Of a stretch of DNA of 64,000 nt, positions 16,709 through 33,532 are shown piece by piece (position 1 is the first letter of the stretch; each line of letters opens with the position of its first letter). The notes below the pieces were generated by a model that saw only the letters and a list, made by a program, of their open reading frames with translations, did no database searches and was not told the origin of the DNA. This DNA is from Bacteriovorax sp. MedPE-SWde (GTDB lineage Bacteria; Bdellovibrionota; Bacteriovoracia; Bacteriovoracales; Bacteriovoracaceae). Location of the stretch: contig MPCU01000005.1 of assembly GCA_001874305.1 (NCBI GenBank), positions 186,001 to 250,000 of the forward strand. The letters are read 5' to 3'. A program made the position numbers and the translations under genes.

Positions 16709-17910
16709 TGAACGAAACAGTTGTATCATATTTATCTCAAGCACCAGGCTACGCTCTATTAGTTGAAAAACTATCAGAGTTCTTTGGTTTTGATGCTGAA
16801 GGTTTTGTTACATTCTTAATATTTGCACTAGTTTGTTTTGTTGTCGTTAACGTAATGTCAGCAATTGGTGGTCTTGGAACGTATGCAGAAAGAAAGATTT
16901 CTGCAGACTTACAGATGAGACAGGGACCAAACAGAGTTGGACCATTTGGTATACTTCAATTCTTAGCTGATGGTGTAAAGATGTTAGGAAAGGAAGATAT
17001 CCTTCCAGCACAGGCCGATAGATTTTTATTCTTAATCGCGCCACTGATGTGTATGGTTGGTGTTTTTGCTTCTCTTGCAGTTGTGCCTTTCTCAAGCGGT
17101 CTTACTTTAACAAATTTAAATATTGGTGTTTTCTACCTTATCGGTGTTTCGTCACTGGTTGGAGTAGGGATTTTCCTTGGTGGTTACGCTGCAAATTCTA
17201 AGTGGTCAATGCTTGGTGGTATGAGGGGTGCTTCACAGATTATTTCTTACGAAGTTCCAGTAACACTTTCAATCTTAGCAATCGTACTAATGACAGGAAG
17301 TTTATCTTTTAATGTTATTACAGATGCTCAAGGTGGTTTACCTCACCAGTGGTACATATTTCATAACCCATTTACATTTATAGCATTCTTCGTACTATTC
17401 ATCGGAGCTCTTGCTGAAACAAACCGTGCTCCTTTTGACTTACCAGAAGCAGAGTCGGAACTTGTATCTGGTTACCATACAGAATTCTCTGGGATGAGAT
17501 TCGCATTCTTCGCTTTAGCAGAATATGTTGAAGTCTTTGTTGTTTGTGGTGTTGTTGCCGCACTTTTCTTAGGTGGATATAAAGTTCCATTTGATCTAGG
17601 AAATGGTGAGCTGATCGCGAAAACTTTCCCAGCAATTCATCCAATGCTTGCTAAGCAAATTGGAAATGTACTTCAACTTAAAGCTTTCATTCTTAAGACA
17701 CTAGCTCTTTATTATGTAGTTATCTGGATTAGATGGACTCTTCCAAGATTAAGAGTTGATAGTCTTATGGTTCTATGTTGGAAATACTTAACTCCAATTG
17801 CTCTATTCAACCTTGTTGGTTGTGCCGTTTGGTTATGGGCATTTGAAGGTAAGTCGATGTGGGCAATGATTTTTAAAAGTGGAGTGGCCGCAGCTGGCGG
17901 ACACCACTAA
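16708..17910 (+). CDS. nuoH: NADH-quinone oxidoreductase subunit H
   Basis: 400 residues with about eight to nine membrane helices. It forms much of the ubiquinone tunnel and joins the peripheral and membrane arms. Family signatures are complete: MRQGPNRVGPFGILQFLADG, the acidic quinone loop AETNRAPFDLPEAESELVSG, and the C-terminal WIRWTLPRLRVDSLM. Its acidic loop implies a functional enzyme. It should contact NuoB, D and I, none of which is encoded nearby; nuoI, which normally follows, is missing from the cluster. Confidence 0.97.
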   Translation: MNETVVSYLSQAPGYALLVEKLSEFFGFDAEGFVTFLIFALVCFVVVNVMSAIGGLGTYAERKISADLQMRQGPNRVGPFGILQFLADGVKMLGKEDILPAQADRFLFLIAPLMCMVGVFASLAVVPFSSGLTLTNLNIGVFYLIGVSSLVGVGIFLGGYAANSKWSMLGGMRGASQIISYEVPVTLSILAIVLMTGSLSFNVITDAQGGLPHQWYIFHNPFTFIAFFVLFIGALAETNRAPFDLPEAESELVSGYHTEFSGMRFAFFALAEYVEVFVVCGVVAALFLGGYKVPFDLGNGELIAKTFPAIHPMLAKQIGNVLQLKAFILKTLALYYVVIWIRWTLPRLRVDSLMVLCWKYLTPIALFNLVGCAVWLWAFEGKSMWAMIFKSGVAAAGGHH

Positions 17911-17926
17911 ATATAAGGGATAAGAG

Positions 17927-18457
17927 ATGTTTCTAAAAATTATGTTCATCCTTGCAGCAACAATGACACTTGGTGGGGCTTTTTTAACTGCTTACACTAA
18001 GAACCTAATGCATGCATGTGTGTACTTACTTGTTTCACTTTTTGGTGTGGCCGGTCTTTATGCAACACTTGGAGCAGACTTTCTAGCTGCTACTCAGTTA
18101 GTTGTTTATGCTGGTGGTGTTGTAATTCTTATGTTGTTTGCGATTATGCTTACAGGTGGGATTCAAAACTTTGTTAATAAATTTGGATTAGATAAAGTAC
18201 CTTCAATGGGTAACGGAAAGACTTATACGATTGCTGGATTAAGTATGATCATCACAGCATTCATTATAATGAAAGTTCTAGCTCCAATCTTTAAAACAAA
18301 TGTTCAAGGTGAATTACCAGCCTTCGCAAGTACTGTAGAAGAAATTGGTGTTCTTCTAGTAACTGACCATGTCCTGGCTTTTGAGATCTCTTCGATATTA
18401 CTTCTTGGAGCTCTTGTTGGTGCAGCGGTAATCTCTAGACCAAGGAGAGGAAAGTGA
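17927..18457 (+). CDS. nuoJ: NADH-quinone oxidoreductase subunit J
   Basis: 176 residues with five membrane helices. TQLVVYAGGVVILMLFAIML contains the TM3 pi-bulge segment that is typical of NuoJ/ND6. The C-terminal helix (LAFEISSILLLGALVGAAVI) keeps its Glu. A loop NGKT at 96-99 recurs in the second-set homologue. It follows nuoH by 16 bases and overlaps nuoK by 4 (GTGA). Confidence 0.96.
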   Translation: MFLKIMFILAATMTLGGAFLTAYTKNLMHACVYLLVSLFGVAGLYATLGADFLAATQLVVYAGGVVILMLFAIMLTGGIQNFVNKFGLDKVPSMGNGKTYTIAGLSMIITAFIIMKVLAPIFKTNVQGELPAFASTVEEIGVLLVTDHVLAFEISSILLLGALVGAAVISRPRRGK

Positions 18458-18759
18458 TTAGTTTAACAAGTTACCTAATTATTTCATTTTGTTTATTTAT
18501 TGCGGGTATGACAGTAATGATCGCCCGTAAAAATATTATTGCTATGCTTTTAGGTATTGAGTTAATTCTCAATGCTGCTGCAATTAACTTTGTAGCATAT
18601 ACAAGATTTGTGAATCAGAACCTTGACGGTCACGTCATGTCTCTATTCATTATAGTAATAGCAGCTGCAGAAGCAGCTGTTGGTTTAGCAATCGTGATTC
18701 GTTTCTTTCAAATTAAAGAAACTATTCACATTGATGATGCAACTGAATTACAGAGCTAA
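18454..18759 (+). CDS. nuoK: NADH-quinone oxidoreductase subunit K
   Basis: 101 residues with three membrane helices. The two buried glutamates essential for coupling in E. coli NuoK are present: Glu36 in MLLGIELILNA and Glu73 in AAAEAAVGLAI. The start is GTG, overlapping the nuoJ stop, with GAGAGGAAA just upstream. The first 12 coding bases are identical to those of the second-set NuoK-like gene at 25660. Confidence 0.97.
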   Translation: MISLTSYLIISFCLFIAGMTVMIARKNIIAMLLGIELILNAAAINFVAYTRFVNQNLDGHVMSLFIIVIAAAEAAVGLAIVIRFFQIKETIHIDDATELQS

Positions 18760-18781
18760 TTGGATATAAGGATATAGTAAG

Positions 18782-20974
18782 ATGGATTATACGATTTCAA
18801 GTGTAGCCCCGATTGTACTTCTACCGTTTTTTGCCTTCGTTATAAACGCGTTCTTGGCAAGACTTGGTGGAAAAGCAACTGTAGCGGCAGTTTTTATTAG
18901 CTGTGCTTCAATTATCGGTTCTGCTATTTATGCTTTAGGAATTTTCAAAGACTTCGTTTTTGGAAACTATGCAACGAACTATCACATTCACAAGTTTTTT
19001 ACTTGGTTTGATCTGAATGGTGGTGGACAGACTTTTAATGTAAACATGGGTATCTACATTGATAACATGACAGCAGTAATGCTTGTGATGGTAACAGTAG
19101 TAGCTGCAATGATTCACATTTTCTCTACCTACTACATGAAAGATGACATGAATTACGGAAGAAACGGACGTTTCTTTGTTTATATGTCTCTCTTCACGTC
19201 AGCTATGTTAGGTCTTGTTCTTTCAGATAACCTTTTCTCAGTATTTATCTTCTGGGAACTTATGGGATTCTGTTCTTACTCACTAATCGGTCATTACTAC
19301 GAAAAAGAAGTTACTGGTAACGCAAACGTAAAAGCGTTCATGACAACAAGAGTTGGAGATGTTTTCTTCCTACTTGGTATTGTTGCTCTTTGGACACAAA
19401 TCGGTTCTGTTGCTTTCGTAGATATTTATAATGCTGTTGAAACAGGAGCTTTCCTTAATACAACAGTTCTTGGTATGCCTCTAGCAATGTTCACTGGAGC
19501 TTGTATCTTCATGGGAACAATTGGTAAATCAGCTCAGTTCCCACTGAATGTTTGGCTACCAGATGCGATGAATGGTCCAACTCCTTGTTCTGCACTAATT
19601 CACGCAGCGACAATGGTTGCAGCCGGTGTTTATCTTTCATTAAGAATTTACCCTCTACTTGAGGCCGGACAACTTACAACACTTGTTGCTTATATTGGTG
19701 GTATTACAGCTTTTGGTGCAGCAACTATTGCACTTGTTCAAACAGACTTTAAAGCGGTACTTGCCTTTTCTACTATTTCACAACTTGGATATATGGTTCT
19801 AGGTGTTGGTGTTGGTTCATACAACGCTGCATTTATGCACTTAATTACACATGCCATCTTTAAAGCATGTTTATTCCTAGCTGCTGGATCAGTAATTCAT
19901 TCACTACATGATCACCATACACATGCTCACGTTCAAGAAATGCCGAGAATGGGTGGTCTAAGACATAAGATGAAATACACTTGGATTGCAATGTGGTGTT
20001 GTACTCTAGCAATCGCAGGTATCCCATTCTTCTCTGGATTTGTATCTAAAGATAGAATTCTTGGTGATGCTTTAGTTGCAGCTTCTCATAACCCAGTTAT
20101 GATTGGGCCAGCAATCTTAGGATTCCTTGGAGCACTTCTAACAGCATTTTACATGTGTAGAATGATGTTCTTAGCTTTCCACGGTGAGCCAAGAGATAAA
20201 GAATTATATGATCATATTCCTGAAGAAAAACTTTCATGGAATAGAAATATCCCTCTACTTTTCCTATCGGTATTTACTCTAGGACTTTGGTTCTCAGGTT
20301 CTTTAACTGGTCAAGGTCTTGTAAAACTAGCTGATTATAAGAACGGTAAGTACGAGTGGTTTCAAACTCTTATTGCTAAGCCTTCTGTTGGTAACTTTAA
20401 AAATTACCAAAGAGAAGAGTTTGGAGCAACGGATACAAGAGTTAAGAATAGCCTTGAAAAATCTAAGTATGACAGTACATATGGTCTAAGTGAAAAAGAG
20501 TCTCATCATGTACATCAAGTTCACGTTATTGGAGCTATCGCTTCAATCATAATTGCTTTCTCTGGTGTATTCATTGCTGCAATGATGTACCTATGGAAGA
20601 AGTGGGACCCAGGATTTTGGGTTAGAACCTTCAATAGATATTACAGAATTTTACAAAACAAATACCACATGGATGACTTCTACATTAAAGGGTTTATCCA
20701 AGGGATGCTGTTACCGTTTAACAACTTGCTAGCTAAATTAGATATGGGTCTTTATGACAGATATGTAGTTGATGGTTCAGCTTCAGTTGTTAAGTTTATT
20801 ATGAGAGTAGCGAACTGGTTTGATAACTTATTCGTAGATACAATCATGGTAGATGGTACAGGGGCAAGTGTTCGTTTCTTTAACGTAATTTTAAGAACGA
20901 TCCAGTCTGGTAAGATTCAGTTCTACTTTATTATTATTATATTAGTACTATTTGGTTATATATTAGCGTTGTAA
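18782..20974 (+). CDS. nuoL: NADH-quinone oxidoreductase subunit L (antiporter-like)
   Basis: 730 residues, slightly longer than typical. It is the distal proton-pumping subunit. The antiporter core shows GIYIDNMTAVML (90-101), TM5 Glu159 in FIFWELMGFCSYSL, and the TM7-8 block FPLNVWLPDAMNGPTPCSAL. The C-terminus holds the long lateral helix and final anchor helix. A hydrophilic stretch at about 525-585 precedes them. It follows nuoK by 22 bases. All residues expected of an active pump that I checked are present. Confidence 0.97.
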   Translation: MDYTISSVAPIVLLPFFAFVINAFLARLGGKATVAAVFISCASIIGSAIYALGIFKDFVFGNYATNYHIHKFFTWFDLNGGGQTFNVNMGIYIDNMTAVMLVMVTVVAAMIHIFSTYYMKDDMNYGRNGRFFVYMSLFTSAMLGLVLSDNLFSVFIFWELMGFCSYSLIGHYYEKEVTGNANVKAFMTTRVGDVFFLLGIVALWTQIGSVAFVDIYNAVETGAFLNTTVLGMPLAMFTGACIFMGTIGKSAQFPLNVWLPDAMNGPTPCSALIHAATMVAAGVYLSLRIYPLLEAGQLTTLVAYIGGITAFGAATIALVQTDFKAVLAFSTISQLGYMVLGVGVGSYNAAFMHLITHAIFKACLFLAAGSVIHSLHDHHTHAHVQEMPRMGGLRHKMKYTWIAMWCCTLAIAGIPFFSGFVSKDRILGDALVAASHNPVMIGPAILGFLGALLTAFYMCRMMFLAFHGEPRDKELYDHIPEEKLSWNRNIPLLFLSVFTLGLWFSGSLTGQGLVKLADYKNGKYEWFQTLIAKPSVGNFKNYQREEFGATDTRVKNSLEKSKYDSTYGLSEKESHHVHQVHVIGAIASIIIAFSGVFIAAMMYLWKKWDPGFWVRTFNRYYRILQNKYHMDDFYIKGFIQGMLLPFNNLLAKLDMGLYDRYVVDGSASVVKFIMRVANWFDNLFVDTIMVDGTGASVRFFNVILRTIQSGKIQFYFIIIILVLFGYILAL

Positions 20975-20995
20975 AACGATATTAAGGAGTAACGA

Positions 20996-22531
20996 ATGAG
21001 TGGTCATTCTAATTTACTAAGTTGGATTCTGTGGATGCCTATTATTGGTGTTCTTGGAACATTATTAATTCCAAGATCTAAAGAGACGATGATCAGAGTA
21101 TGGTCTCTCTTAAACACAGTTGTTACTATGGGGCTTTGTGCCGTACTTTATATGAAGTTCGACATCACGCAACCAGGTATGCAATCATTTTTCACAATTA
21201 AGATGCCTTGGATTAAGCAATTCAATATCTTCTACCACTTAGCGGTAGATGGAATTTCTCTTCCAATGATTCTCTTAACTTCACTGCTATTCTTTATTTG
21301 TATTCTGTCTTCATGGACAATTAAGAAACAAATTAAGGGATACTTTGCACTTCTACTGTTTCTACAGTCTTCAGTGTTTGGTGTTTTCTTAGCAATGGAC
21401 TTCTTCCTATTCTATGTTTACTGGGAAGTAATGCTTATTCCAATGTTCTTCCTCATCGGTATTTGGGGTGGAGAGAACAGAGAGTACGCAGCTGTTAAGT
21501 TCTTCTTATATACATTCTTTGGATCGATCCTAATGCTTGTTGGTATGGTTGCACTATACTTCATGACAGGTCAGGGTGTTGACTCATTTAATATCTTAGC
21601 TCTTTCGGGTGGTCAGTTTACTGATAAGACAGTCGAATTATTTGGATTTGTTCTACCATTTGCTAAAGTGTTCTTCGTAGCTCTTTTCATTGGTTTCGCA
21701 ATTAAAGTTCCAGTATTTCCATTTCATACATGGCTTCCACATGCTCACGTTCAGGCACCTACAGCGATTTCAGTAATCCTAGCTGGTGTACTTCTGAAAA
21801 TGGGAACATATGGATTCTTAAGAATTGCATTCCCAATCTTCCCAAGTGCTTCTGTTTATTTTGCAGATGCAATTGCTTGGCTTGGTTTAATAAACGTAAT
21901 TTACGGAGCATTCTGTGCAATGGCACAAAATGATGTAAAGAAACTTGTAGCTTATTCTTCAGTTTCTCACATGGGATTCGTAATGTTAGGTCTTGCTGCT
22001 ATGACAGTACAAGGTATGAACGGAGCTGTTCTACAGATGTTCAACCACGGTACTTCAACAGCTATGATGTTCCTTCTTATTGGTATTCTTTATGAAAGAT
22101 CTCACCACAGATGGATTATCAGACCAGACGGTACAAAAGGTTTTGGTGGTCTTTATACTCAACTTCCAAAATACTCTATCGTATTCATTATCGCGATGTT
22201 CGCTTCAATGGGTCTTCCAGGACTATCAGGTTTCATCTCTGAAGCACTAATCTTCCTAGGGATCTACGAAAGATTTACAACAATTACTGTTATTGCAGTT
22301 GTTGGTCTTCTACTTGGTGCTGCTTACCTACTTTGGATGTTCAAGAGAATGTTCTTTGGAGAGGTTATTGAAGAGTGTAAGTCATATACAGATATGAATG
22401 CACGAGAGATCTTCTATATGACTCCACTTTGTATAGCAGTTATCGTATTTGGTGTATGGCCATCTCCGCTTCTTAACATGATGAAGGCGTCAGTTGGTAA
22501 ACTAGTTTCGCTTCTAGCAAGCTTTTCATAA
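20996..22531 (+). CDS. nuoM: NADH-quinone oxidoreductase subunit M (antiporter-like)
   Basis: 511 residues with about 14 helices; central proton-pumping subunit. The core opens with FNIFYHLAVDGISLPMILL (76-94). TM5 has the essential Glu144 in VYWEVMLIPMF. The TM7-8 block reads FPFHTWLPHAHVQAPTAISV. ATTAAGGAG lies 5 bases before the ATG. It is in the same run as nuoL and nuoN, with spacings of 21 and 12 bases. Confidence 0.97.
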   Translation: MSGHSNLLSWILWMPIIGVLGTLLIPRSKETMIRVWSLLNTVVTMGLCAVLYMKFDITQPGMQSFFTIKMPWIKQFNIFYHLAVDGISLPMILLTSLLFFICILSSWTIKKQIKGYFALLLFLQSSVFGVFLAMDFFLFYVYWEVMLIPMFFLIGIWGGENREYAAVKFFLYTFFGSILMLVGMVALYFMTGQGVDSFNILALSGGQFTDKTVELFGFVLPFAKVFFVALFIGFAIKVPVFPFHTWLPHAHVQAPTAISVILAGVLLKMGTYGFLRIAFPIFPSASVYFADAIAWLGLINVIYGAFCAMAQNDVKKLVAYSSVSHMGFVMLGLAAMTVQGMNGAVLQMFNHGTSTAMMFLLIGILYERSHHRWIIRPDGTKGFGGLYTQLPKYSIVFIIAMFASMGLPGLSGFISEALIFLGIYERFTTITVIAVVGLLLGAAYLLWMFKRMFFGEVIEECKSYTDMNAREIFYMTPLCIAVIVFGVWPSPLLNMMKASVGKLVSLLASFS

Positions 22532-22543
22532 ATAGGTGTAATA

Positions 22544-24019
22544 ATGGCTTTAAGATATTTAGCAAGCATTAGTCACTACATTCCTGAAATGCTTCTGTGC
22601 CTAACAATGGCCGGTTTGATCTTGATCGAATCGACATATGGTAGAGAAGTAAAAGGGCGTGCAAAAGGAATGGTTTACGCAGGTGCTTACCTGGGTCTAC
22701 TTGCTACTTTTGTTTCTCTCTTTAAAACTATGGGAACTGAGCCACTACAAATCTTTACTGGCTCAATCGTAATTGACTCTTTTGGAACTTTGGCCAAAAT
22801 GGTTATGGTTGTTGGTACAGCTGCTGCAATTTACTTAGGAAGACAATCTCTTGATATTTACGAAGAGGTTAAGTCTGAATTTGTAATACTTGCAATCGGT
22901 GTTCTTATTGGTGGGATGTTAATTGTCTCAGCAAATAATATGCTAATTTTCTATATTGGGATCGAAACACTTTCAATCCTTTCATATGTAATGGCATCTC
23001 TTAAGAAAAATGATGAAAGATCTTCTGAAGCTGGTCTGAAGTACTCTCTATATGGAGGTATTACTGCAGGTATCATGCTATTCGGAATGAGTCATATTTT
23101 TGGTGTATTAGGGACAATTCAGTTTAATGAAGTAATCCCAGCAATGGCCGCTCTTACTAAGACGCAGTCACTGATAATTATGCCAGCATTCGTTCTATTC
23201 TTCGCAGGAATTGGATACAAGATTGCTTGTGTACCTTTTCACATGTGGTCACCTGATGTTTATGAAGGTTCACCACTTCCTGTAACGAACTTCTTTTCAA
23301 TTGTTCCAAAGATTGCTGGTGTAGTTGCTTTAGTTAGAATTACAAACACATTCTTTGGTGGTGATACGTCAATAGTGAGAGAAACTTGGGTTTGTCTTCT
23401 TATGATCGCATCAGCTCTTACAATGACTGTAGGTAATGTTTCAGCTATTGGACAAAGATCTGTTAAAAGAATGCTAGCGTATTCAAGTATCTCACACGCA
23501 GGTGTTATGTTACTTGGTGTACTTGTTATAGATGACCTTGGTGCTAGAGCAATCCTGTTCTACGCAGTAACGTACCTATTTATGACACTTGTAGCTTTCT
23601 TCATTACTTCATTTGTTCAGGACCACTATGGTAACGATCACTTTGAAAGATTTAATGGTTTAATATCGAAGCACCCTCTAATGAGTATCCTTATGATTAC
23701 CGTAATGTTCTCACTTGCTGGTCTTCCACCATTATCAGGATTTGTTGCAAAGTTTAATATTCTAGCAGCTATCATTGCTAAGAAGTATTATGTATTAGCA
23801 GTTATTGCTGTACTAAACTCAGTTGTATCACTTTACTATTATCTTAAGATTGTAAGAATTATGGTTTTCAAAGATGCTGAGTCTGATGAGACAATTCCAG
23901 GATTTGGATTCTCTAATCAATTAGTAATTACTATAATGACTCTTCCTGTTCTACTATTAGGAATCTTCTGGGAGAAACTAGTTGTTATTGCTGGTGGAGC
24001 TAAGATCTTTATTCAGTAG
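22544..24019 (+). CDS. nuoN: NADH-quinone oxidoreductase subunit N (antiporter-like)
   Basis: 491 residues, the proximal antiporter-like subunit. The core opens at IVIDSFGTLAKM (Asp78). TM5 carries Glu141 in YIGIETLSILSYVM. The TM7-8 block is FHMWSPDVYEGSPLPVTNF. It closes the canonical set A-H-J-K-L-M-N. The next coding sequence begins 2 bases after its stop, so transcription very likely runs on into the divergent second set. Confidence 0.97.
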   Translation: MALRYLASISHYIPEMLLCLTMAGLILIESTYGREVKGRAKGMVYAGAYLGLLATFVSLFKTMGTEPLQIFTGSIVIDSFGTLAKMVMVVGTAAAIYLGRQSLDIYEEVKSEFVILAIGVLIGGMLIVSANNMLIFYIGIETLSILSYVMASLKKNDERSSEAGLKYSLYGGITAGIMLFGMSHIFGVLGTIQFNEVIPAMAALTKTQSLIIMPAFVLFFAGIGYKIACVPFHMWSPDVYEGSPLPVTNFFSIVPKIAGVVALVRITNTFFGGDTSIVRETWVCLLMIASALTMTVGNVSAIGQRSVKRMLAYSSISHAGVMLLGVLVIDDLGARAILFYAVTYLFMTLVAFFITSFVQDHYGNDHFERFNGLISKHPLMSILMITVMFSLAGLPPLSGFVAKFNILAAIIAKKYYVLAVIAVLNSVVSLYYYLKIVRIMVFKDAESDETIPGFGFSNQLVITIMTLPVLLLGIFWEKLVVIAGGAKIFIQ

Positions 24020-24021
24020 TT

Positions 24022-24312
24022 ATGACAGAAGCATTAGTAATATTTTCAATATTATTTTTCATATTAGGGGTAGTGTTTATCTACCCCTTATTTTTTTCTA
24101 AAAGAAACACAGAGTCGCAGTCTAACTTACAATTCGTTTATCACCGAAGTACTTATAGACCTCAGTTGTCAAAAGTCCTTAAACTCATCTTCGCACTTAT
24201 CATTCCTGCAATGTTTCATGTAATGGTTGCAAGCTCTAGTTCTCTAGAATTCTCTAAAGAAACATATGCTTTTCTTGTTGCAGTTGCTACAATTTTACTA
24301 TTCCTTATTTAA
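24022..24312 (+). CDS. Divergent NuoA-like membrane protein (second set, A position)
   Basis: 96 residues with three predicted membrane helices and a short loop after the first, the topology of NuoA. Set against nuoA, VVFIYPLFFSKRNTES aligns without gaps to ALLVGKLVRPQNPTEL. The loop Cys block (ECG) is replaced by FVY. The buried acids of helix 2 (FDVEGA) have no counterpart in ALIIPAMFHVMVA. On its own this protein would be an orphan. The assignment rests on topology, the loop match and its place as the first of seven genes repeating the preceding gene order. It starts 2 bases after nuoN. Confidence 0.6.
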   Translation: MTEALVIFSILFFILGVVFIYPLFFSKRNTESQSNLQFVYHRSTYRPQLSKVLKLIFALIIPAMFHVMVASSSSLEFSKETYAFLVAVATILLFLI

Positions 24313-24330
24313 TAATATTGAGAGGATAGC

Positions 24331-25215
24331 TTGATTAACTTTATGTTAATGGCCGTAGGAATAGCACTACTGTTTATAATTTATAAGTTTATGAAACACG
24401 AAATGGTTTCATCGAATATCTCTATTCAGAGGTACTGTACTCTTGCAAAATTTGATGAACTAAGAGATAGCAAAATTATTCTAATTCGTTTAGCATCCGT
24501 CGGTGTAAACTTCGCATTGATTGTCTTTGGTTTATACTATTGTATCTTTGGCGAGGAACTAAATAGCCGCTACAATGCTGGAAGTATTAGCCTGTATATC
24601 GTAGCAGACATTACACTGTTCTATATCGTACATCTCGGTGTCATTAAGCAACGCCACGACATTCTCACATTTTTAAGAATTGCTATTTTAGAGTTAATGA
24701 TAGCTTTGGTGATTATTGCTTCGCTCATAGTAAATGTTCAAGGAATAAATATACTTGATATTGTTTTGGCCCAAAATGAGTTAGTCGCTGGAATTCCACA
24801 ATGGAATGCAATAGTTCTATTGCCACTCTTCTACATTTGGAATGCCAACTCTGTTGATTGCGTAAGGTCATTGGCCGAAGACAGGCTTGAAACTGAAGTT
24901 GATAGATTTCAGACAAGACTTCTTTATGCTGCTAGATATATTGCATGGGGAGTATTAACAATTACTCTCTTTTTTGGTGGTGGTAATTTCTTTGAACTTT
25001 TTGACCTATTTAACTTTAATAACACGGGAATAAACTCATTAGAGCTAATATTATTTTTAATAAAATTCATCTTAGTTCTACTAGTTGGAAAAATATATAC
25101 ACGTTTAGTAGGCCCAAGGAAGCTTGTAGAAATAGAATCGCTCTATAAGAAAAGAGCACTATTTGTTGTAGTTATTTTTATCTGTATATCTCTATATAAG
25201 GTGGCCCAGTTTTGA
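24331..25215 (+). CDS. Divergent NuoH-like membrane protein (second set, H position)
   Basis: 294 residues (NuoH here is 400) with about seven to eight membrane helices; TTG start with GAGAGGA upstream. Two regions echo NuoH. The mid-protein hydrophilic stretch SLAEDRLETEVDRFQTRLLY falls where NuoH has its ETNRAP...ESELVSGY quinone loop and is followed by a helix ending in a glycine cluster. The C-terminal FLIKFILVLLVGKIYTRLVG then PRKL...LYKK parallels FILK...WIRWTLPRLRVDSLM...WKY. The conserved ETNRAPFDLPE motif itself is lost, so quinone chemistry like that of NuoH is unlikely. Confidence 0.65.
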   Translation: MINFMLMAVGIALLFIIYKFMKHEMVSSNISIQRYCTLAKFDELRDSKIILIRLASVGVNFALIVFGLYYCIFGEELNSRYNAGSISLYIVADITLFYIVHLGVIKQRHDILTFLRIAILELMIALVIIASLIVNVQGINILDIVLAQNELVAGIPQWNAIVLLPLFYIWNANSVDCVRSLAEDRLETEVDRFQTRLLYAARYIAWGVLTITLFFGGGNFFELFDLFNFNNTGINSLELILFLIKFILVLLVGKIYTRLVGPRKLVEIESLYKKRALFVVVIFICISLYKVAQF

Positions 25216-25667
25216 TAATTTTGCAGCTATTAACAATATTGCTACTATTATGCTTGGCGATCTTTGAATTAAGAAAATGGCGAGAGATCATTCTTGTCGT
25301 ATTTATTGTTTCTTTAGTTCTTTCTGTACCGACATTTACTGTATTCTATAAAAACTACGTTCTTATGCTCTCTTTTGTAATTGCATTTGTTCTTATGTTC
25401 TTCAGGCGAACTTTTCCATCAGTTGTATCCGGTTACAGTATTAATATAAATGGAAAAACAAAAGTATTCGTTTGTGCTTCATTGGTAATTGGATTTACAC
25501 TTCTAAATTACATTCAATATAGAACAGGACTTATTTTAGATAAATCTGTTGTTACAATGGGGAACTTAATTTTTAATATTAAGAGTGAGCACATATTAAG
25601 GTATACAGCTATTACCCTTATGTTTATTACAATTGCTTTGGTGAAAACGGGGGAAAGTCGTGATTAG
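25212..25667 (+). CDS. Divergent NuoJ-like membrane protein (second set, J position)
   Basis: 151 residues (NuoJ here is 176) with five predicted membrane helices; TTG start overlapping the previous stop. The central loop INGKTKVFVCASLVIGFTLL aligns without gaps with the NuoJ stretch beginning GNGKTYTIAGLSMIIT, sharing NGKT. The last helix region MGNLIFNIKSEHILRYTAI parallels IGVLLVTDHVLAFEISSIL, with the Glu replaced. The glycine-rich TM3 of NuoJ (VVYAGGVVILML) has no clear counterpart. It overlaps the next gene by 8 bases, as nuoJ overlaps nuoK. Confidence 0.65.
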   Translation: MIILQLLTILLLLCLAIFELRKWREIILVVFIVSLVLSVPTFTVFYKNYVLMLSFVIAFVLMFFRRTFPSVVSGYSININGKTKVFVCASLVIGFTLLNYIQYRTGLILDKSVVTMGNLIFNIKSEHILRYTAITLMFITIALVKTGESRD

Positions 25668-25917
25668 TTTAGATAACTTTCTATTTCTTTCGATACTCGT
25701 ATCGATCTCTTTTTCGGGTTTAATTTTTGCTAAGAACCTACATAAGAGGCTTATCTTTTCATTCATTCTCATTTTTACAAGTGTAGGTCTGTTAGACTTA
25801 AAAATTGCTCAAAGAGCAGATCTATCAGGAGGGATTAATATTTTAATCTATATTGTACCTCTATTAGTTATCCTTATTCTTATATTTGAACAGTTTAAGA
25901 AGAACTTAAGGGATTAG
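25660..25917 (+). CDS. Divergent NuoK-like membrane protein (second set, K position)
   Basis: 85 residues with three membrane helices. The N-terminus MISLDNFLFLSILVSISFSG parallels nuoK MISLTSYLIISFCLFIAGMT. The GTG start and first 12 coding bases are identical to nuoK. Both essential glutamates are gone: position 36 is Ile (LIFSFILIF), and the third helix (IYIVPLLVILILIF) has no acid. This is the clearest single pairwise match between the two sets. It overlaps the NuoJ-like gene, as nuoK does nuoJ. Confidence 0.72.
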   Translation: MISLDNFLFLSILVSISFSGLIFAKNLHKRLIFSFILIFTSVGLLDLKIAQRADLSGGINILIYIVPLLVILILIFEQFKKNLRD

Positions 25918-25918
25918 A

Positions 25919-27280
25919 ATGTTTTATATAGTCGTCATATGTACACTGATTCTCATATTAGACCATTTTCTTAAATCAAAGAAATTAAACATCTCTAGGC
26001 TCTTAACAGTAATTCCTCTAGCTATTATTCCACTTGCAAATATCACTGGTATTAGCTTAGATCTAATATTCAACTTGCCAATACTTTTAACTGTATTTCT
26101 ATTGTTGGATACTAAATTAACTATTGATAAGAAGTTAATTGGCTTACTGCCGTCATACATACTTTGTGTTCCTGGATACAACCAACTAGTTCTGATTTTT
26201 CAAATGATATACTTCATGAACTTTTGTAGTGATAGAGAGGATCGTGGAACATCCCTTTTACAATCTGTAATATTTATCGTTGGAATTTATATTGAAAGTA
26301 GCTATGTATCAACGATTATGATTTCACTTGGGATTGGACTAATGCTGTTTGACTATGGTCGCAATAGTAGCTTTGCCCTAAGAAAACTATATAGTGTTGT
26401 AGTAATGTTGTTTTTAAGTACAGGGACACTTCATATAAGTACTCAACTAAATTTTTACCTTATTGGTCTAGCACTACTTGTGTATTTAATGTCCATAAGT
26501 AAGAAAAATATTGAAAGAAATGGATTAATCTTTCTTATTATCGTAAATAGTTATTTCATAAGTTCTAAGCAAATTATTAACATGCTAAACATTTACTTTG
26601 TTTATATATTCTTATGTGATCTTGTAGAGTTTATAATTAATAAATACGGTAGAAAAAACAGTAAGGAATATCTAGATCTTCTCAGAAGAGGGAGTGTTTT
26701 ATCTCCACATATTCTATTCTTATTAGTAATAGGCAATGGTGGTGAGTTTCAAACCTTTTCTAATATTTGTCTTTCTGTAGTAATAGTTTTAAACATCCTA
26801 TTCTCAGATATATCAAAAGATATAAAAGATAGATTCCTACAGAAACTAATAGTAGCTTCCCTATTTATAACATTAATATTTATGCCTTTTGGTAATAGCT
26901 CTGGAAACTTTCTGTTCTTAAATAGTAGTGAGTTTTTAGAGTATGGAACTTGGACTAATACAACAGTAACAATCTACGTACTTATTGCGATCTTTTCTAT
27001 TATTTTTCTTATTCTAAGTGAGAGGATTAAAGCGGTTTTAGACCCTATGGTATTCAAGGTCGATTTCACAAATGGTAAGAGAACAGAATTAATATATAAC
27101 AATATAAATTTGATGCTAGAAAAAGATATAACTAAATATGATCGTAAAAAAATAAAGCATCGTAGGCCATTATTTATTGAAATGTTATTAATCTTTGCTG
27201 AATTTATAACAGAGAGATTACCTGTTACGGTATGGGCAATAATTCTTTCACTCTTAATCACTATGGTTGTATCTATATGA
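25919..27280 (+). CDS. Divergent NuoL-like membrane protein (second set, L position)
   Basis: 453 residues (NuoL here is 730) with roughly 11-13 membrane helices. TGISLDLIFNLPILLTVFLL (43-62) aligns with the NuoL opening GIYIDNMTAVMLVMV. FQMIYFMNFCS (94-104) aligns with FWELMGFCS of TM5, with Ile in place of the pump Glu. After the helical core comes a basic cytoplasmic stretch (about 375-420) and a final hydrophobic anchor, recalling the NuoL C-terminal arrangement. The WLPDAMNGPTP block is not found. The gene starts 1 base after the K-like gene and overlaps the next by 4 (ATGA). Confidence 0.62.
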   Translation: MFYIVVICTLILILDHFLKSKKLNISRLLTVIPLAIIPLANITGISLDLIFNLPILLTVFLLLDTKLTIDKKLIGLLPSYILCVPGYNQLVLIFQMIYFMNFCSDREDRGTSLLQSVIFIVGIYIESSYVSTIMISLGIGLMLFDYGRNSSFALRKLYSVVVMLFLSTGTLHISTQLNFYLIGLALLVYLMSISKKNIERNGLIFLIIVNSYFISSKQIINMLNIYFVYIFLCDLVEFIINKYGRKNSKEYLDLLRRGSVLSPHILFLLVIGNGGEFQTFSNICLSVVIVLNILFSDISKDIKDRFLQKLIVASLFITLIFMPFGNSSGNFLFLNSSEFLEYGTWTNTTVTIYVLIAIFSIIFLILSERIKAVLDPMVFKVDFTNGKRTELIYNNINLMLEKDITKYDRKKIKHRRPLFIEMLLIFAEFITERLPVTVWAIILSLLITMVVSI

Positions 27281-28149
27281 AAAACTTAAACCTATCAAAT
27301 ATTAGTAAACACTTAATACTAGTTATAATTAGTGTTTTAAGTATTTTCTTATATGTAAATATGGGAATTCAAGAGATAACGAATCTTTCTTTATACGAAC
27401 TTTATTTCTCTAAAAGCTTTTTTAATATTTTTATTGGATTAGATCATTTAACAATATTAATGATTATACCTTTTTGTATAACTTTTTCTAATGGATATAA
27501 GTTAAATAGTGTCCTTCAGTTCTTGATCTATAGTATTCTCTTTTTAATTTCACCCTCAATCTATTTTCAAATACTATGGGCATATCTACTTTTGTCAGCA
27601 ATGAATGACCAAAGAGGTAAGAAGAACTTATTGTTTACTTTAATATCAATAGCTTTAATAGGAATACTCTTAAGGGCTACAGATTACTCTATTCAATATT
27701 ATGTCCCGTTTATAATCATAACTGCTAGATCTTTGTTTAAAAGAACGTCGATTGTATTTGATATAATTTCTTTAGCCTTTTGTATAAATACTTTACAGCT
27801 TCCTGGAGCAGTTCCTGAATTGTGGAATAACATATTCTTTGTTCTGGTATTTCTTATAGGTCGTATAAAAGAAAACTCAAGAGATGAATTAACTCTCTTT
27901 GCTTTTTGGGCCTTGTTTTCAGGCTTCCCTGTTCACTTAGTAGTAACTATCTATGCTCTTTCAATCTATAGAAAGAGCCTTGGTAAAATAGAAATCAAGC
28001 CTGAGATCAATAATCTTATAATGGCCACTCAACTATTTATCTACATATTTATATTGTATAGTTCACATCAAAAAGCATTACTATTGGTATTTCCACTTCT
28101 TATGGCCTTTAGGTACGTTAGTGAGGAAACTAAAGAGATGAGGTTATAA
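27277..28149 (+). CDS. Divergent NuoM-like membrane protein (second set, M position)
   Basis: 290 residues (NuoM here is 511) from the ATG at 27277, which overlaps the previous stop as ATGA; the longer frame from 27232 lies inside that gene. FFNIFIGLDHLTILMII (48-64) is a close counterpart of FNIFYHLAVDGISLPMIL in nuoM. ILWAYLLLSAM (99-109) matches YVYWEVMLIPM, with Trp kept and the essential Glu144 replaced by Ala102. Roughly eight to nine helices remain. The second half of the antiporter repeat seems reduced or missing. Confidence 0.7.
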   Translation: MKNLNLSNISKHLILVIISVLSIFLYVNMGIQEITNLSLYELYFSKSFFNIFIGLDHLTILMIIPFCITFSNGYKLNSVLQFLIYSILFLISPSIYFQILWAYLLLSAMNDQRGKKNLLFTLISIALIGILLRATDYSIQYYVPFIIITARSLFKRTSIVFDIISLAFCINTLQLPGAVPELWNNIFFVLVFLIGRIKENSRDELTLFAFWALFSGFPVHLVVTIYALSIYRKSLGKIEIKPEINNLIMATQLFIYIFILYSSHQKALLLVFPLLMAFRYVSEETKEMRL

Positions 28150-29150
28150 TGATATCTGAATATTATTTACTAATTTTCTTATACCCAATTTCTTATGCTC
28201 TTTTTCAAGTGTCTAAAAAGTTGAAGATTGATGAGTCGATATCGTTGAAGTTTCTTTTTACATCATTCTTCTTTGTGTTTTATGGTTTATTTTCAACTTA
28301 TGTCGTAAGTAGTACTGAGAATGGTTACTTGTTCATGACAACTATTATCTATAGTTTAGCGATTTTTAAAGATGATTTAACCCTATCTAATATTTATAAA
28401 TACTTCACATACTATTGGTTATCGCTTCTTCTTATTTGGGGCTTTATCAGCTTTACAGATACACTTTTAATTTTAGGTGTAATCCCTCTGTTAATGGCCA
28501 ATAAGAAAACAAATATGGTTATTGGAAAGTTAGTTATTTGGTTGAGTCTTGTATTCTTCAATAACTTGATTCCACAAATTGGAGTTGGAGAAGGTCTTAT
28601 TTTTAAAAATTGGCTTATCGAATTATTCTTTGTTTTATTGGCATTATTAACTATCCCAGATGAAGATAGAAAACATCACAGTAATTTACTCCAGTATCTT
28701 TTGTGTCTTGGGGTCTTCCATATGGCATTGGCCAATTTTGGAATGATGCCTTCAACGTTTGTAAAACTACTTATTGTAGGTCAATTAGTGTCGCTTTTTA
28801 TGTATTTAAAAACGGAAGAACTGAAGTACTTAACAACTGGTTTAATCTTTGGGTCATTAGTACTAATACCGTACGAAGGTGTTTCAACGTTAACTCAAAT
28901 GTCGCTAGTCGCTTATGGTGCTGTGTTCATCTATGATAAATATAAATTGAACTACGTGAGACAAGTTTATACAGCCGCACATTTAACAGTTTGTCTCTAT
29001 ATTTTCTACTTAATCTATAAAGTTGACTTAAATGGTTCTCCATATGTAACAGTTTCGACAGTTATATTATTTGGTCTAATAGCGATAAATTTTATGTTTA
29101 GAGAGAGATTATTCTTATCTCGAAAACTGATCAAATTTAACCACGGTTGA
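28149..29150 (+). CDS. Divergent NuoN-like membrane protein (second set, N position)
   Basis: 333 residues (NuoN here is 491) with about ten membrane helices; start overlaps the previous stop (TAATG). KIDESISLKFLFTSF (26-40) parallels VIDSFGTLAKM. IYSLAIFKDD and then YKYFTYYWLSLLLIWGFIS (83-101) parallel SYVMASLKKND and LKYSLYGGITAGIMLFGMS, sharing the Lys-Tyr pair. The TM5 Glu position is Leu61 in ungapped alignment; the nearest acid is Glu57. It closes the second set and is the last gene before a possible promoter at 29147-29175. Confidence 0.65.
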   Translation: MISEYYLLIFLYPISYALFQVSKKLKIDESISLKFLFTSFFFVFYGLFSTYVVSSTENGYLFMTTIIYSLAIFKDDLTLSNIYKYFTYYWLSLLLIWGFISFTDTLLILGVIPLLMANKKTNMVIGKLVIWLSLVFFNNLIPQIGVGEGLIFKNWLIELFFVLLALLTIPDEDRKHHSNLLQYLLCLGVFHMALANFGMMPSTFVKLLIVGQLVSLFMYLKTEELKYLTTGLIFGSLVLIPYEGVSTLTQMSLVAYGAVFIYDKYKLNYVRQVYTAAHLTVCLYIFYLIYKVDLNGSPYVTVSTVILFGLIAINFMFRERLFLSRKLIKFNHG

Positions 29151-29181: not shown

Positions 29182-32100
29182 ATGAGGAAATACCGAGTTA
29201 AGAATGATGACGGTAGAGTTTTGGGCCCATTCTCCAAAGGTCAACTTGAAGAACTATATATAAAGAATCAAATATCTGAAACAAGTCTGTTTCAAGTCTT
29301 CCCTGTTGGTGACTGGGAAAAACTAAATGATCTTAGCGAAATTAAATCTGTGTTTGCTCAAATGTCTGCTGAGGCAGAGACTGTAACAAAGACAATACCT
29401 GTAGTGGAAAAAGATCCAGGGGTAAAGGAAAAATCTAAGCCACCTGTTGAAGAGAATACTGCTTTTAGGGAATTTAAATTTAGTAATCAAAATGATGAAC
29501 CCGTCGATTATTCAAACTTTGAAAAAGAAATGAAGCCGGAAGTGGAAACTGAGCCAGAGGTTCCTGCTGGATTTGATAAAACGGTCGTCGTTAAAAGGCC
29601 TTCTGCTCCAGTGAATATCGATAAGACCGTTGTTGTTAATAAGAATACCCTTGCTGAGCTAGACGTGGATATTGAAGATGATGTTGATAGTGAAGTTGAA
29701 TCTGAAGCTGCTCCAGTGGAACCTGTAAAACCGGTAGAACCAGTTGTTGAAGAAATTAGTACTGACGACAAGACCATGATTGCTAACGTAAAAGATCTTC
29801 TGCCAGAAACAAATAGTATCGAAGACGATATTGCAGAGATAGAAAGTAAACTTAGAAGCTCCGAAGTTGAAGGTAACGTAGAACAAAAAAGAAGAAGTAA
29901 GAAAAAAGAACCAAAAAGAAGAAAAGAAGAAAAAGGAAAACTAAAAAGTAAGAAGAATCTTAGTGTTGCGCTATTTCTTGTAATTGCTCTAGTATTCTTA
30001 ATGCCAGATGATAAAGAGGAAAAGGTTACAAAAGTTCTTCGTCCTAAAATATCATTTCCAGTTGCTGAAGCTTATAAGAAGCCGGCAGAAAGTAAGCAAA
30101 AATTAAAAGAAGGAATTGAGAAATTCTATGTTGGTGGATACATCAATACTATTAAATCTACAGGTTTCTTTAAAAGATCATTAGAACTACAGTTTAGAGA
30201 TAACGAAGCTCTCTCATACCTTATCTATGCCTATAGTAAGTTACTTCCGGAATCAGGGAATGCTCTTCGAGATGGAAAGACTTTATTCAAACTAATTAAT
30301 ATTCAAAGGCCTAAGATTCTAAGTGATTCGAATATGGCACTAGGTACAGCAGGTTTCTATTCGTTCTTTGGCAAGCATGACACTGCAATTTATTACATAG
30401 AAAACTATTTAAGGCTTAATAAACCAACTCCTCTATTATTTGCAAGATATCTAGAAGAGCTACTTGCGGTTGGGAACTATGTTCAAGGCCAGAAAATCTT
30501 TGATAAGTTAGTAAAAGCAAAACGCAAAAAGTTTGAAGTCATTAGGGCCTTAACAAAGTTTTATATAGCAAATGAAAAACTTGATGAAGCTTTAAAATTA
30601 GCTCAAAGCTATCATGAAAAATATATAACTAACTATAAGTTCTTAACTCTATATGGAAACTTATTATTAAAGAAACAAAATTATAAGAAATTAGTAAAAA
30701 TAACAAAGTACCTCATTGAAAATAAAGGAGGAGGATCACCTTACGTATATTCAGAAGCATTAAAATTTATGGGTTATATCGCAATCTATAAAGGTAAGAC
30801 TGAAGATGTTGCAAAGTATTTTAAAGCATCATTAAAGTATCATGATTCTGAAGAGTTAAAAGGTGTTCTTGCATCTCTTGATATCGCAGGTACAGATCTT
30901 TCAAAAGAAATTATTAAGAAAAGCAAGATAGAAGTCTTGATTAAAAAATCTATGGCTGAAGCAAAGAACTTGGAATGGGACAAGGCATTTCAATATGCAG
31001 TGGAAGCGAGTGATTTAGATGAAATGAATTTGGCCTCTCAGCTATATATGGCAAGTATTCAATCAAGGCGAGGATATCTTAACTCGGCCATTAAAACATT
31101 GAATAATCTAAGAGAAAAATATCCAACAAACAGGCATGTGAATTATGAGTTGGTAATGGCCAATATCAGATCTTTTAAAAAGTCTGAAGCCAAGAGACTT
31201 ATTGCTACTTTATCGACAATACCTAACTTTAAAAGCTCTTTTGAGTACTTGGCGATCCTAGGGCATTACTATGCTTTAGCAGGCAATAGTAAACTTTCAT
31301 TTGAAAGATTTAAAGGTGCCATTCAAAAGAACCCGTTAAGAGATGATATTTACTATGAGATGGCGTTAGTTGCTTATGTAAACAAGAAGTTTAAAAAGTG
31401 TAAGCAGTTTCTAAATGAAGCACAATTATTAGACCCTAGAAATATTCAGTATAAAATTTTATACAGTAAAATTATATTTGAAGAGGATGGTATTGAAACT
31501 GCTATTGGATATTTAAGAAACCAACTAGAAAAGTTCAAGGATAGTCCTCAGATTCTTGGTCAGATAGCTGTCTTCTACTATAAAGATCAAAGTATTGAAG
31601 AGTACAAAGAGTACCGAGAAAGACTGGAGAGGCTCTCAACAAAAGATGAAGGTCTTTATCGATTCCTAGTAGAAACATCAGAACTAGAGAAGAATGATAA
31701 GTCGATAATAGAAAGTGCTGAAAAGTTATTAATCATATCACCTGGAAGTCTTGATATTAGAATGACATTGGCCAGCTCTCTAACAAGGATGGGAAAACAT
31801 CAGGCGGCAATAGATCAACTAAATGAAGTTGAAGAGCGCCTTAATTCTTATCCAAAGGTTAATTATTTTAAAGCAAAGATTTATATTATAAATCGAGATT
31901 ATAAGAAGTCTGAGTTTGCGGCTAAGAAAGAAATTGAGCTGAATCCATCTTCAGAATATGGATACTATATTCTAGGAGAAACTTATTTAAAAACAAAGAA
32001 TTATGCCCAGGCGAAAAAGAATCTAGAGAAAGCTATCCAATTACGTCCTGACTTTTATGAATGTTTACTGTCATTAGGTTGGTTAAAGTTCAAGCAGGGT

Positions 32101-32304
32101 TATTATCCAGCAGCTCGTGAACTCTATCAAAGAGCATTAAGGCAGAGACCAAGTGACCCAGAGATTCATAAGAGACTTGGCTATGTATATAAAGAGATTG
32201 GACAGAGTGCTATGAGTATTGAGGAATTTAAGACTTATTTAAACTTGAATCCTGTTGCACCAGATCAAAATAAAATCAAAAGACTTATAAGACAAATGCA
32301 GTAA
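29182..32304 (+). CDS. GYF-domain / TPR membrane protein
   Basis: 1040 residues. Residues 1-50 are a GYF_2 (DUF4339-like) module: YRVKNDDGRVLGPFSKGQLE then a Trp in GDWEKL. Residues 60-230 are acidic, Pro/Glu-rich and probably unfolded, with DKTVVV at 132-137 and 147-152 and DKTMIA at 196-201. A Lys/Arg-rich stretch (236-258) precedes one membrane helix (about 260-275). The remaining 760 residues are TPR repeats, clearest near the C-terminus (AQAKKNLEKAIQLRPDFYEC, AARELYQRALRQRPSDPEI). The GYF half is predicted cytoplasmic and the TPRs periplasmic. GYF plus disordered linker is also known from the myxobacterial motility protein GltJ/AgmX; a similar role is speculation. Confidence 0.8.
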   Translation: MRKYRVKNDDGRVLGPFSKGQLEELYIKNQISETSLFQVFPVGDWEKLNDLSEIKSVFAQMSAEAETVTKTIPVVEKDPGVKEKSKPPVEENTAFREFKFSNQNDEPVDYSNFEKEMKPEVETEPEVPAGFDKTVVVKRPSAPVNIDKTVVVNKNTLAELDVDIEDDVDSEVESEAAPVEPVKPVEPVVEEISTDDKTMIANVKDLLPETNSIEDDIAEIESKLRSSEVEGNVEQKRRSKKKEPKRRKEEKGKLKSKKNLSVALFLVIALVFLMPDDKEEKVTKVLRPKISFPVAEAYKKPAESKQKLKEGIEKFYVGGYINTIKSTGFFKRSLELQFRDNEALSYLIYAYSKLLPESGNALRDGKTLFKLINIQRPKILSDSNMALGTAGFYSFFGKHDTAIYYIENYLRLNKPTPLLFARYLEELLAVGNYVQGQKIFDKLVKAKRKKFEVIRALTKFYIANEKLDEALKLAQSYHEKYITNYKFLTLYGNLLLKKQNYKKLVKITKYLIENKGGGSPYVYSEALKFMGYIAIYKGKTEDVAKYFKASLKYHDSEELKGVLASLDIAGTDLSKEIIKKSKIEVLIKKSMAEAKNLEWDKAFQYAVEASDLDEMNLASQLYMASIQSRRGYLNSAIKTLNNLREKYPTNRHVNYELVMANIRSFKKSEAKRLIATLSTIPNFKSSFEYLAILGHYYALAGNSKLSFERFKGAIQKNPLRDDIYYEMALVAYVNKKFKKCKQFLNEAQLLDPRNIQYKILYSKIIFEEDGIETAIGYLRNQLEKFKDSPQILGQIAVFYYKDQSIEEYKEYRERLERLSTKDEGLYRFLVETSELEKNDKSIIESAEKLLIISPGSLDIRMTLASSLTRMGKHQAAIDQLNEVEERLNSYPKVNYFKAKIYIINRDYKKSEFAAKKEIELNPSSEYGYYILGETYLKTKNYAQAKKNLEKAIQLRPDFYECLLSLGWLKFKQGYYPAARELYQRALRQRPSDPEIHKRLGYVYKEIGQSAMSIEEFKTYLNLNPVAPDQNKIKRLIRQMQ

Positions 32305-32338: not shown

Positions 32339-32397
32339 TTTAGAACTTACTTTTTTTAGTAAAGCTCTTTTAAATTTACGTTTACGTAGTTATATGC

Positions 32398-32485
32398 GGA
32401 GGATTGGCTGAGTGGTCGAAAGCGGCGGTTTTGAAAACCGTTGACCCGAAAGGGTCCGCAGGTTCGAATCCTGTGTCCTCCGCCA
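32398..32485 (+). tRNA. tRNA-Ser (anticodon UGA)
   Basis: Acceptor GGAGGAT pairs with GTCCTCC, followed by discriminator G and encoded CCA. The anticodon arm GGCGGTTTTGAAAACCGT presents TGA. The variable arm (TTGACCCGAAAGGGTC) is long, as in class II serine tRNAs. The T-loop GGTTCGAATCC is standard. Confidence 0.96.
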
Positions 32486-32546
32486 TTTTTTTGAGCTGTT
32501 TTTGACACACTTCATTACATTTCAGAAAAATCAAATTACAATATAT

Positions 32547-32638
32547 GGAGACGTGGCCGAGTGGCCGAAGGCAACGCCTTGCTAAGGCGTCGTACGGGTC
32601 AAACTGTACCGTGAGTTCGAATCTCACCGTCTCCGCCA
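32547..32638 (+). tRNA. tRNA-Ser (anticodon GCU)
   Basis: Acceptor GGAGACG pairs with CGTCTCC, with G and CCA at the 3' end. The anticodon arm ACGCCTTGCTAAGGCGT presents GCT. A long variable arm (CGTACGGGTCAAACTGTACCG) and T-loop GAGTTCGAATCTC complete a class II tRNA. It lies 61 bases after tRNA-Ser(UGA), so the two are probably co-transcribed. Confidence 0.96.
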
Positions 32639-32645
32639 TTTAAAA

Positions 32646-32698: not shown

Positions 32699-33532
32699 AT
32701 GAAACCCATTAATACTCGAGTTAGCTTTTGGTTGGTTATAACTGTAATTACGTGGCTTATATTTAGCGTAATTTACTGGTTGGTTCCTAAGTCTTTTAAA
32801 GTAACCGATGTAAGGGATGAGCTGTTCCTAGAAAAGTCTCAAGTAACAATATCACTTGTCCTTGAATCTCTATTTGAAATTGAAAAACAAGAATGTAATT
32901 TTAGAAACGATAATATTTATTGTCGAGCAAGATTAAAGGCTCGAGAGTTTTGTTATGATAGTAAAGTATGTGTAACAGATAAGGTCGACATAGTTCTTGC
33001 TACTAACTCAATAGATTCTAGTTCAATTAATGCTTCTCTATATCTGTTTGATAGTAGCGAAAAAGAGAGAAAATTTTCAAAAGATCAGTTGGTAATAAAG
33101 TGGCCTAAGCTTGAGCAGTATATTCTAAAGACAAGAGGCTTCTATGTTGAAATTCCCAAGACACTTAACTTCTCTCTAATTAAAAATAAAAAAGTTAAGA
33201 ATGCTAACTTGTCTAAAAACTTTTTAGATATTGTACGAAGAGAGAACTTGAGTGAGATTAGAAATCAAATCTTCTTAAATGTAGATACGCCTAAGAATTA
33301 TTTTGAAGAGCTAGAGTCTGTTTTGGTTTCTTATACAAATAGACCAAACTTTTATAGATCATTATACTTTAGTGGTATAACTTTGTTGTCCATTGGCTAT
33401 GGAGATATAGTTCCAGTATCAACATTTGGAAGAATGATGGCAATCCTGGAAGGGTTTATTGGATTGGTTCTAATGGCGATTATTGCTGTTGTTTTTTACG
33501 ACGGATTAAGAAATAGAAAGGGCCAGGAGTAA
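32699..33532 (+). CDS. Potassium-channel-like protein with large extracytoplasmic domain
   Basis: 277 residues; AAGGAG upstream of the ATG. TM1 is at about 8-30 (FWLVITVITWLIFSVIYWLV). A pore helix and selectivity filter TLLSIGYGDIVP are at 228-239 (GYGD 233-236), and TM2 is at about 248-268. This is the two-helix KcsA/MthK layout. Unusually, about 180 residues separate TM1 from the pore helix, where ordinary two-TM channels have a short turret. That domain contains four clustered Cys (about 65-95) that could form disulfides outside the membrane. No cytoplasmic RCK domain follows. The channel fold is well supported; ion, gating and ligand are unknown. Confidence 0.82.
   Translation: MKPINTRVSFWLVITVITWLIFSVIYWLVPKSFKVTDVRDELFLEKSQVTISLVLESLFEIEKQECNFRNDNIYCRARLKAREFCYDSKVCVTDKVDIVLATNSIDSSSINASLYLFDSSEKERKFSKDQLVIKWPKLEQYILKTRGFYVEIPKTLNFSLIKNKKVKNANLSKNFLDIVRRENLSEIRNQIFLNVDTPKNYFEELESVLVSYTNRPNFYRSLYFSGITLLSIGYGDIVPVSTFGRMMAILEGFIGLVLMAIIAVVFYDGLRNRKGQE

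Follow-up and report, generated by a model that had tools for sequence, protein, structure and literature searches.

A divergent second complex I, split over two loci and probably repurposed, in Bacteriovoracaceae

Bacteriovorax sp. MedPE-SWde (assembly GCA_001874305.1) carries, next to its first complex I genes, the membrane arm of a second and extremely divergent complex I. Seven open reading frames (ORFs) that directly follow nuoN make up this arm in the order A-H-J-K-L-M-N; they occupy positions 24022–29150 of the 64,000-nucleotide stretch analysed here (contig MPCU01000005.1, positions 186,001–250,000), hereafter called the window, and the peripheral genes of the second complex lie at a separate locus. 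The reading that we favour, with a probability of roughly 60%, is that the second complex is a whole NADH-type complex I that has degenerated, would no longer pump, and has been kept and repurposed. Genomes are given G-numbers (G000 is the window genome), genera g-numbers and loci L-numbers; primes mark the second-set membrane ORFs after nuoN (A', H', J', K', L', M', N') and the second peripheral genes (B', CD', I').

The second membrane arm

The DNA after nuoN was read in 42 Bacteriovoracaceae genomes, the window genome and 41 relatives. Seven membrane ORFs follow nuoN in 35 of them (34 detected by automatic chaining and G085 by eye), in the same size order and mostly with a TPR protein next. 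The contig of G111 ends after five second-set ORFs, and no second membrane set follows nuoN in G002, G019, G035, G063, G071 and G109. The summed length of the second set grades from a full size of 2368 residues down to 1613 residues; in the window the L, M and N counterparts are shortened by a third to two fifths, while in the g6 genomes (G005, G047 and G043) the set is full size and plainly NuoA/H/J/K/L/M/N. Compared by hhalign with Nuo subunit profiles built within this analysis, the long versions matched their own subunit at 97.5–100% on the diagonal, with L, M and N cross-matching as expected. Stepwise genus profiles placed the intermediates with their own counterparts as well: all seven ORFs in G037, A, H, J, K and N in g16, H, L, M and N in G040, M and N in G021, and N in G016. 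The best match of the A' genus profile was NuoA, at 17.7% only. Synteny and the full-length sets thus uphold the original prediction that the seven ORFs, whose place, strand and order are real, are a second, extremely divergent membrane arm.

In the window the seven ORFs lie on one strand (plus) and overlap or abut. A' (24022–24312, 96 residues) is assigned to NuoA by position, synteny and its long versions, which match NuoA at 99.1%, and H' (24331–25215, 294 residues) to NuoH by its AlphaFold2 fold, conserved columns and synteny. J' (25212–25667, 151 residues) and L' (25919–27280, 453 residues, shortened) match nothing by sequence and are placed by synteny and position as NuoJ- and NuoL-derived; the long versions of J' match NuoJ at 98.7%, and L' of G040 matches NuoL at 97.9%. 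Between them, K' (25660–25917, 85 residues) is NuoK-derived by position, with long versions matching NuoK at 97.5%. M' (27277–28149, 290 residues) and N' (28149–29150, 333 residues), both shortened, are likewise assigned to NuoM and NuoN by position and synteny; M' of G021 and G040 matches NuoM at 97.3% and 91.9%, and N' of G021, G016 and g16 matches NuoN at 89–99%. The L'/M' junction is an ATGA overlap at 27277–27280, which makes 27277 the best start of M'; an alternative in-frame ATG upstream, at 27232, would give 305 residues. The prediction had also matched the two sets by rank and relative size, and the sizes do correlate (Pearson 0.985; Spearman 0.89 for the ranks, a value matched by 31 of 5040 permutations), the single departure in rank being a swapped M'/N' pair. 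The short motif matches that the prediction also listed play no part in the assignments made here.

Curated profiles are silent on the window proteins: neither Pfam nor NCBIfam gave a significant match for the seven ORFs, the best for K' being the NuoK family (Oxidored_q2) at a weak E of 0.23. A direct protein search with L' returned zero relatives, even from the same genus, so synteny was used instead; a search with H' returned a few (30% identical in G012, 46% in G115). A pooled profile of 27 short versions failed against the Nuo subunits for all except H because its rows were too divergent to align, and for L' and N' the alignments spanning 25 genomes were of too low a quality for use. The silence of the databases is what might be expected of seven unrelated membrane proteins whose sizes match by chance. 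That explanation is ruled out for H' by its predicted fold and for the block by its synteny, in 35 of the 42 genomes, with sets whose long versions are Nuo subunits, and we give it practically no weight.

The structure of window H' was modelled with AlphaFold2 from an alignment of 20 short second-set orthologues that held no full-length second-set and no first-set NuoH. The model reached a pLDDT (predicted local distance difference test) of 78.5 and a pTM (predicted template modelling score) of 0.82. In Foldseek the matches listed were NuoH/ND1 or their counterparts (best E 1.3e-4), and a structural aligner superposed the model at Z 21.6 and 3.3 Å over 282 residues, all 50 listed entries being complex I or NDH. 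Window H' is therefore predicted to have the NuoH fold. Its alignment has Q, P, GG and K columns common to the window and intermediate versions. The short versions retain landmarks of NuoH, and window H' has in common with it the Q and the K that are invariant and the two glycines of FLGGY.

The second peripheral arm

The original prediction was of a membrane arm only. A search for NuoD across the family revealed a second copy, and in G005 a complete second peripheral arm, B-CD-E-F-G-I, is found at L101:7048–13147. The corresponding locus of the window genome (G000:C14, L099 9576–11856, minus strand) holds only B-like, CD-like and small I-like genes; both loci have as neighbours a lipoprotein of about 500 residues, aat and an arginase-like gene. 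B' of the window genome matches Pfam Oxidored_q6 (E 1.5e-11) and CD' the 49 kDa (E 9.4e-22) and 30 kDa (E 3.6e-7) families, all above cut-offs, while I' is identified only by its ferredoxin-like CxxCxxC and its position. NuoC and NuoD are fused in the second complex and separate in the first. The lipoprotein-B'-CD'-I' operon is found throughout the family, and full-length CD' in about 80 of the genomes listed. Genes E, F and G occur in g6 and in G094, and G050 has at least E; NuoF (PF01512) stands beside the second CD in G005 and G047. The genera g6 and g44 carry the whole second complex, and g29 probably does too. Judged by these gene sets, the second system is a whole complex I split over two loci, with 14-subunit versions in some genera, and the notion of a membrane arm alone has to be given up.

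The predicted lipoprotein that stands before B'-CD'-I' (L099:11901–13421, minus strand) is about 500 residues long, belongs to no known family and has some nine cysteines that are invariant. Of 129 genomes of the class, 109 encode it; G035, in which no B', CD' or I' was found next to it, has also retained it. Also near B'-CD'-I', at L099:5097–6818, lies a gene for a permuted papain-like peptidase C92 protein; a similar neighbour seems to occupy the same place in G005.

Origin and relation to the other complexes

A tree was built from concatenated H, L, M and N, the second sets being represented by their long versions. The window second set is too divergent for such a tree and is placed by synteny and the intermediates. 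Within the tree, which has no Ehr sequences in it, the second set groups with complex I sequences. The long second sets fall apart from the first sets of the same genomes and group with L108, the intact third complex of G071, and with the Oligoflexia locus L127. An approximately unbiased (AU) test, made with the long-branched G037 removed, rejected a single clade of first and second sets (p-AU 3.9e-6); composition and long branches call for caution in reading the tree. The second set, as placed by these comparisons, is descended from another, NADH-type complex I lineage and was separately inherited.

The original prediction had taken the second set for a duplicate of the already rearranged first cluster. 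Tandem duplication of the neighbouring cluster is rejected by the AU test, and the two sets fall in different parts of the complex I tree. The resemblance to a duplication arises because both sets keep the usual A to N order with the peripheral genes removed. A tandemly duplicated arm that partners the first complex in its structure or its assembly would agree with the adjoining location and the shared gene order; it is highly improbable given the AU test, the B, CD and I genes that the second set has of its own, and two genomes, G028 and G080, that keep the second complex without the first. These two lack the first nuoN and the first NuoD, yet have the second membrane set, the TPR protein and B'-CD'-I'. 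The second complex is thus not simply a partner of the first, and the structural role that had been suggested for it beside the first complex is weakened accordingly.

The converse arrangement is seen in the g12 genomes, which keep lipoprotein-B'-CD'-I' and in which no second membrane arm was found. A hidden arm was sought there with H' and N' profiles, which returned only first- and third-complex genes; the arm has likely been lost in g12, a relocated and very divergent one being conceivable. Some g12 genomes have a third, intact NADH-type complex I (L108, for example); that of G027 (L228) stands directly beside the degenerate lipoprotein-B'-CD'-I'.

The first complex of the window genome consists, in the window, of nuoA (16280–16708; Oxidored_q4, E 3e-31), nuoH (16708–17910; NADHdh, E 3e-110), nuoJ (17927–18457; Oxidored_q3, E 2e-31), nuoK (18454–18759; Oxidored_q2, E 2e-23), nuoL (18782–20974; E 6e-73), nuoM (20996–22531; E 4e-70) and nuoN (22544–24019; E 1e-67), the last three matching Proton_antipo_M. 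All seven genes of this cluster (16280–24019), on the plus strand, score above the Pfam cut-offs. The window genome has no PF01512 (NuoF) anywhere, which makes its first complex, too, one of the 11-subunit kind. Its locus at G000:C8:443000–462900 (L100) is an instance of complex I without NADH module in Bacteriovoracaceae.

Directly after N', at 29182–32304 on the plus strand, lies a gene for a 1040-residue protein with one transmembrane segment and a long TPR array, recognised by TPR families; it follows nuoN or N' in nearly all relatives, whether the second arm is present or not. Beyond it are two consecutive tRNA-Ser genes (32398–32485 and 32547–32638), of which a minus-strand ORF at 32382–32639 is a mere antisense reading, and a gene for a small membrane protein with a C-terminal potassium-channel-like pore (SIGYGD; 32699–33532).

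Loss of motifs and redox centres

Of the 42 first sets, 41 have the E-channel motif of NuoH, as do all three g6 second sets; none of the seven intermediates has it, and none of the 24 short versions, the window included. PFHxW in transmembrane helix 7 of NuoM/NuoN follows the same course: 42/42 in first sets, 3/3 in g6, 2/7 and 1/7 in intermediates, and 0/24 in short versions. In CD' the HPATHG loop is replaced in all short versions, and the RLNY tyrosine column is likewise not conserved in them; the histidine of the former and the tyrosine of the latter are quinone-site residues of NuoD. The four presumed N2 cysteines of B' (CC..C..C) are all kept in the window genus, g2, G037 and G082, lost in g12 and G004, and partly lost in G041 and G040. 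A count of buried charges was uninformative. This distribution indicates a general loss of the pump motifs, with loss of the redox centre confined to certain lineages.

These cysteines bear on whether the second complex could still be a redox enzyme, namely an 11-subunit quinone reductase that draws its electrons from ferredoxin or flavodoxin and has abandoned pumping. In the window genus B' keeps its N2 ligands and I' one C..CxxCxxC set, and the NADH module is missing as it is in known 11-subunit complexes (PMC11238625); for this genus such an enzyme is possible. For the second complex as a whole it seems improbable: G041, G040, g12 and G004 have lost the cysteines but retain the complex or its peripheral half, and the short versions of CD' do not conserve the HPATHG loop, in which the histidine of the quinone site lies.

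Selection and rates

Between genomes of the same genus the ratio of nonsynonymous to synonymous divergence (dN/dS) of the second set is mostly about 0.12–0.3 where dS can be estimated, with single values reaching 0.7 (A' against G115 gives 0.22 at dS 1.05); that of the first set is mostly 0.01–0.1. The frames stay open, and purifying selection, if weak, seems to act on the second-set proteins. In genera other than those retaining the NADH module, the second set evolves 5–20 times faster than the first; in g6 both evolve alike, the second as slowly as the first. A release of constraint accompanies the loss of the NADH module.

Rates of this kind fit a relic in slow decay, made redundant by the loss of the NADH module and left under relaxed selection with no function of its own. 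This is the main rival of a repurposed complex, and it draws further on the independent, repeated losses of the B' cysteines in g12, G041, G040 and G004, and on the missing membrane arm or whole complex in g9, g12, G035 and G002. Yet all seven frames are open in the 35 genomes despite same-genus dS of about 1 or more, dN/dS is not near 1, gene order is kept, and the lipoprotein and CD' are retained across most genera; a neutral remnant would not be expected to survive through a whole family. We consider a relic unlikely, though a more serious contender than a surviving redox enzyme.

Discussion

The data above suggest a model in which the ancestor of the family had a full NADH-type complex I (A, B, CD, E, F, G, H, I and J–N). 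Its genes came to lie in two places, with A'-H'-J'-K'-L'-M'-N' after the first nuo cluster and, at the other locus, [lipoprotein]-B'-CD'-(E-F-G)-I'. In most genera, the window genome included, comparison shows that the NADH module has gone, the E-channel and antiporter motifs have been lost, L, M and N have become shorter and quinone-site residues have changed, with frames and gene order staying intact under weak purifying selection. The proteins may still assemble into a complex I-shaped membrane particle incapable of NADH-driven proton pumping, and this particle would have been repurposed, most probably as a scaffold or a conformational or redox-sensing device linking B'CD'I' to the periplasm, where the co-encoded cysteine-rich lipoprotein is predicted to sit. 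A more specific version, a non-catalytic pseudo-complex I in which B', CD' and I' join the seven membrane subunits and which is selected for a structural or signalling task with the periplasmic lipoprotein, is put forward tentatively, at somewhat less than even odds.

Several observations weigh against a repurposed complex. Its redox ligands are partly kept in the window genome (four of four presumed N2 cysteines of B'); in the window genus only position, and intermediates in other genera, assign L', M' and J'; an AlphaFold2 model of N', made from four rows, failed (pLDDT 56, no meaningful fold match); dS is near saturation in most pairs; and the arm is absent after nuoN in the g12 genomes read, G019, G035 and G002, which shows that it is dispensable.

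Complex I is among the most conserved energy-converting machines. Within this one family it can be followed from a 14-subunit enzyme that is still intact to a set of ten subunits that is retained but past recognition. This gradation opens to testing the question of which parts give complex I its shape and which serve solely in coupling and pumping. 'Orphan' membrane operons next to nuo genes may be disguised complex I, of a kind that annotation pipelines would overlook. The literature searched, which lacked most subscription papers, yielded no description of a degenerate or second complex I from Bacteriovorax or related bacteria.

Of the known systems, the 14-subunit complex I (Nuo of E. coli; L108) resembles the second complex in subunit set, gene order, fused NuoCD (in E. 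coli) and the NuoH fold; the window version differs in being without E, F and G, in its lost pump and quinone motifs and in its two loci. To our knowledge, Mrp antiporters have no counterpart of NuoH, B or CD, whereas the second complex has H', B' and CD'. What Mrp antiporters do offer is a precedent for complex I-related membrane subunits at work without NADH oxidation (PMC9568556). Complexes of 11 subunits without NADH module are also known (PMC11238625), and these, like the window's first complex, have B, CD, I and the seven membrane subunits in common with the second; the known enzyme works and its sequence is conserved, whereas the motifs of the second complex are degenerate in both arms. 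Ehr complexes, paralogues of complex I and group 4 hydrogenases, likewise keep the architecture after losing catalytic-site ligands (PMC6349859). Ehr, however, descends from a hydrogenase whose Ni-Fe ligands it has lost, and it still has antiporter subunits to which ion translocation is ascribed, while the second complex would be an NADH-type complex I minus its donor module and its pump motifs.

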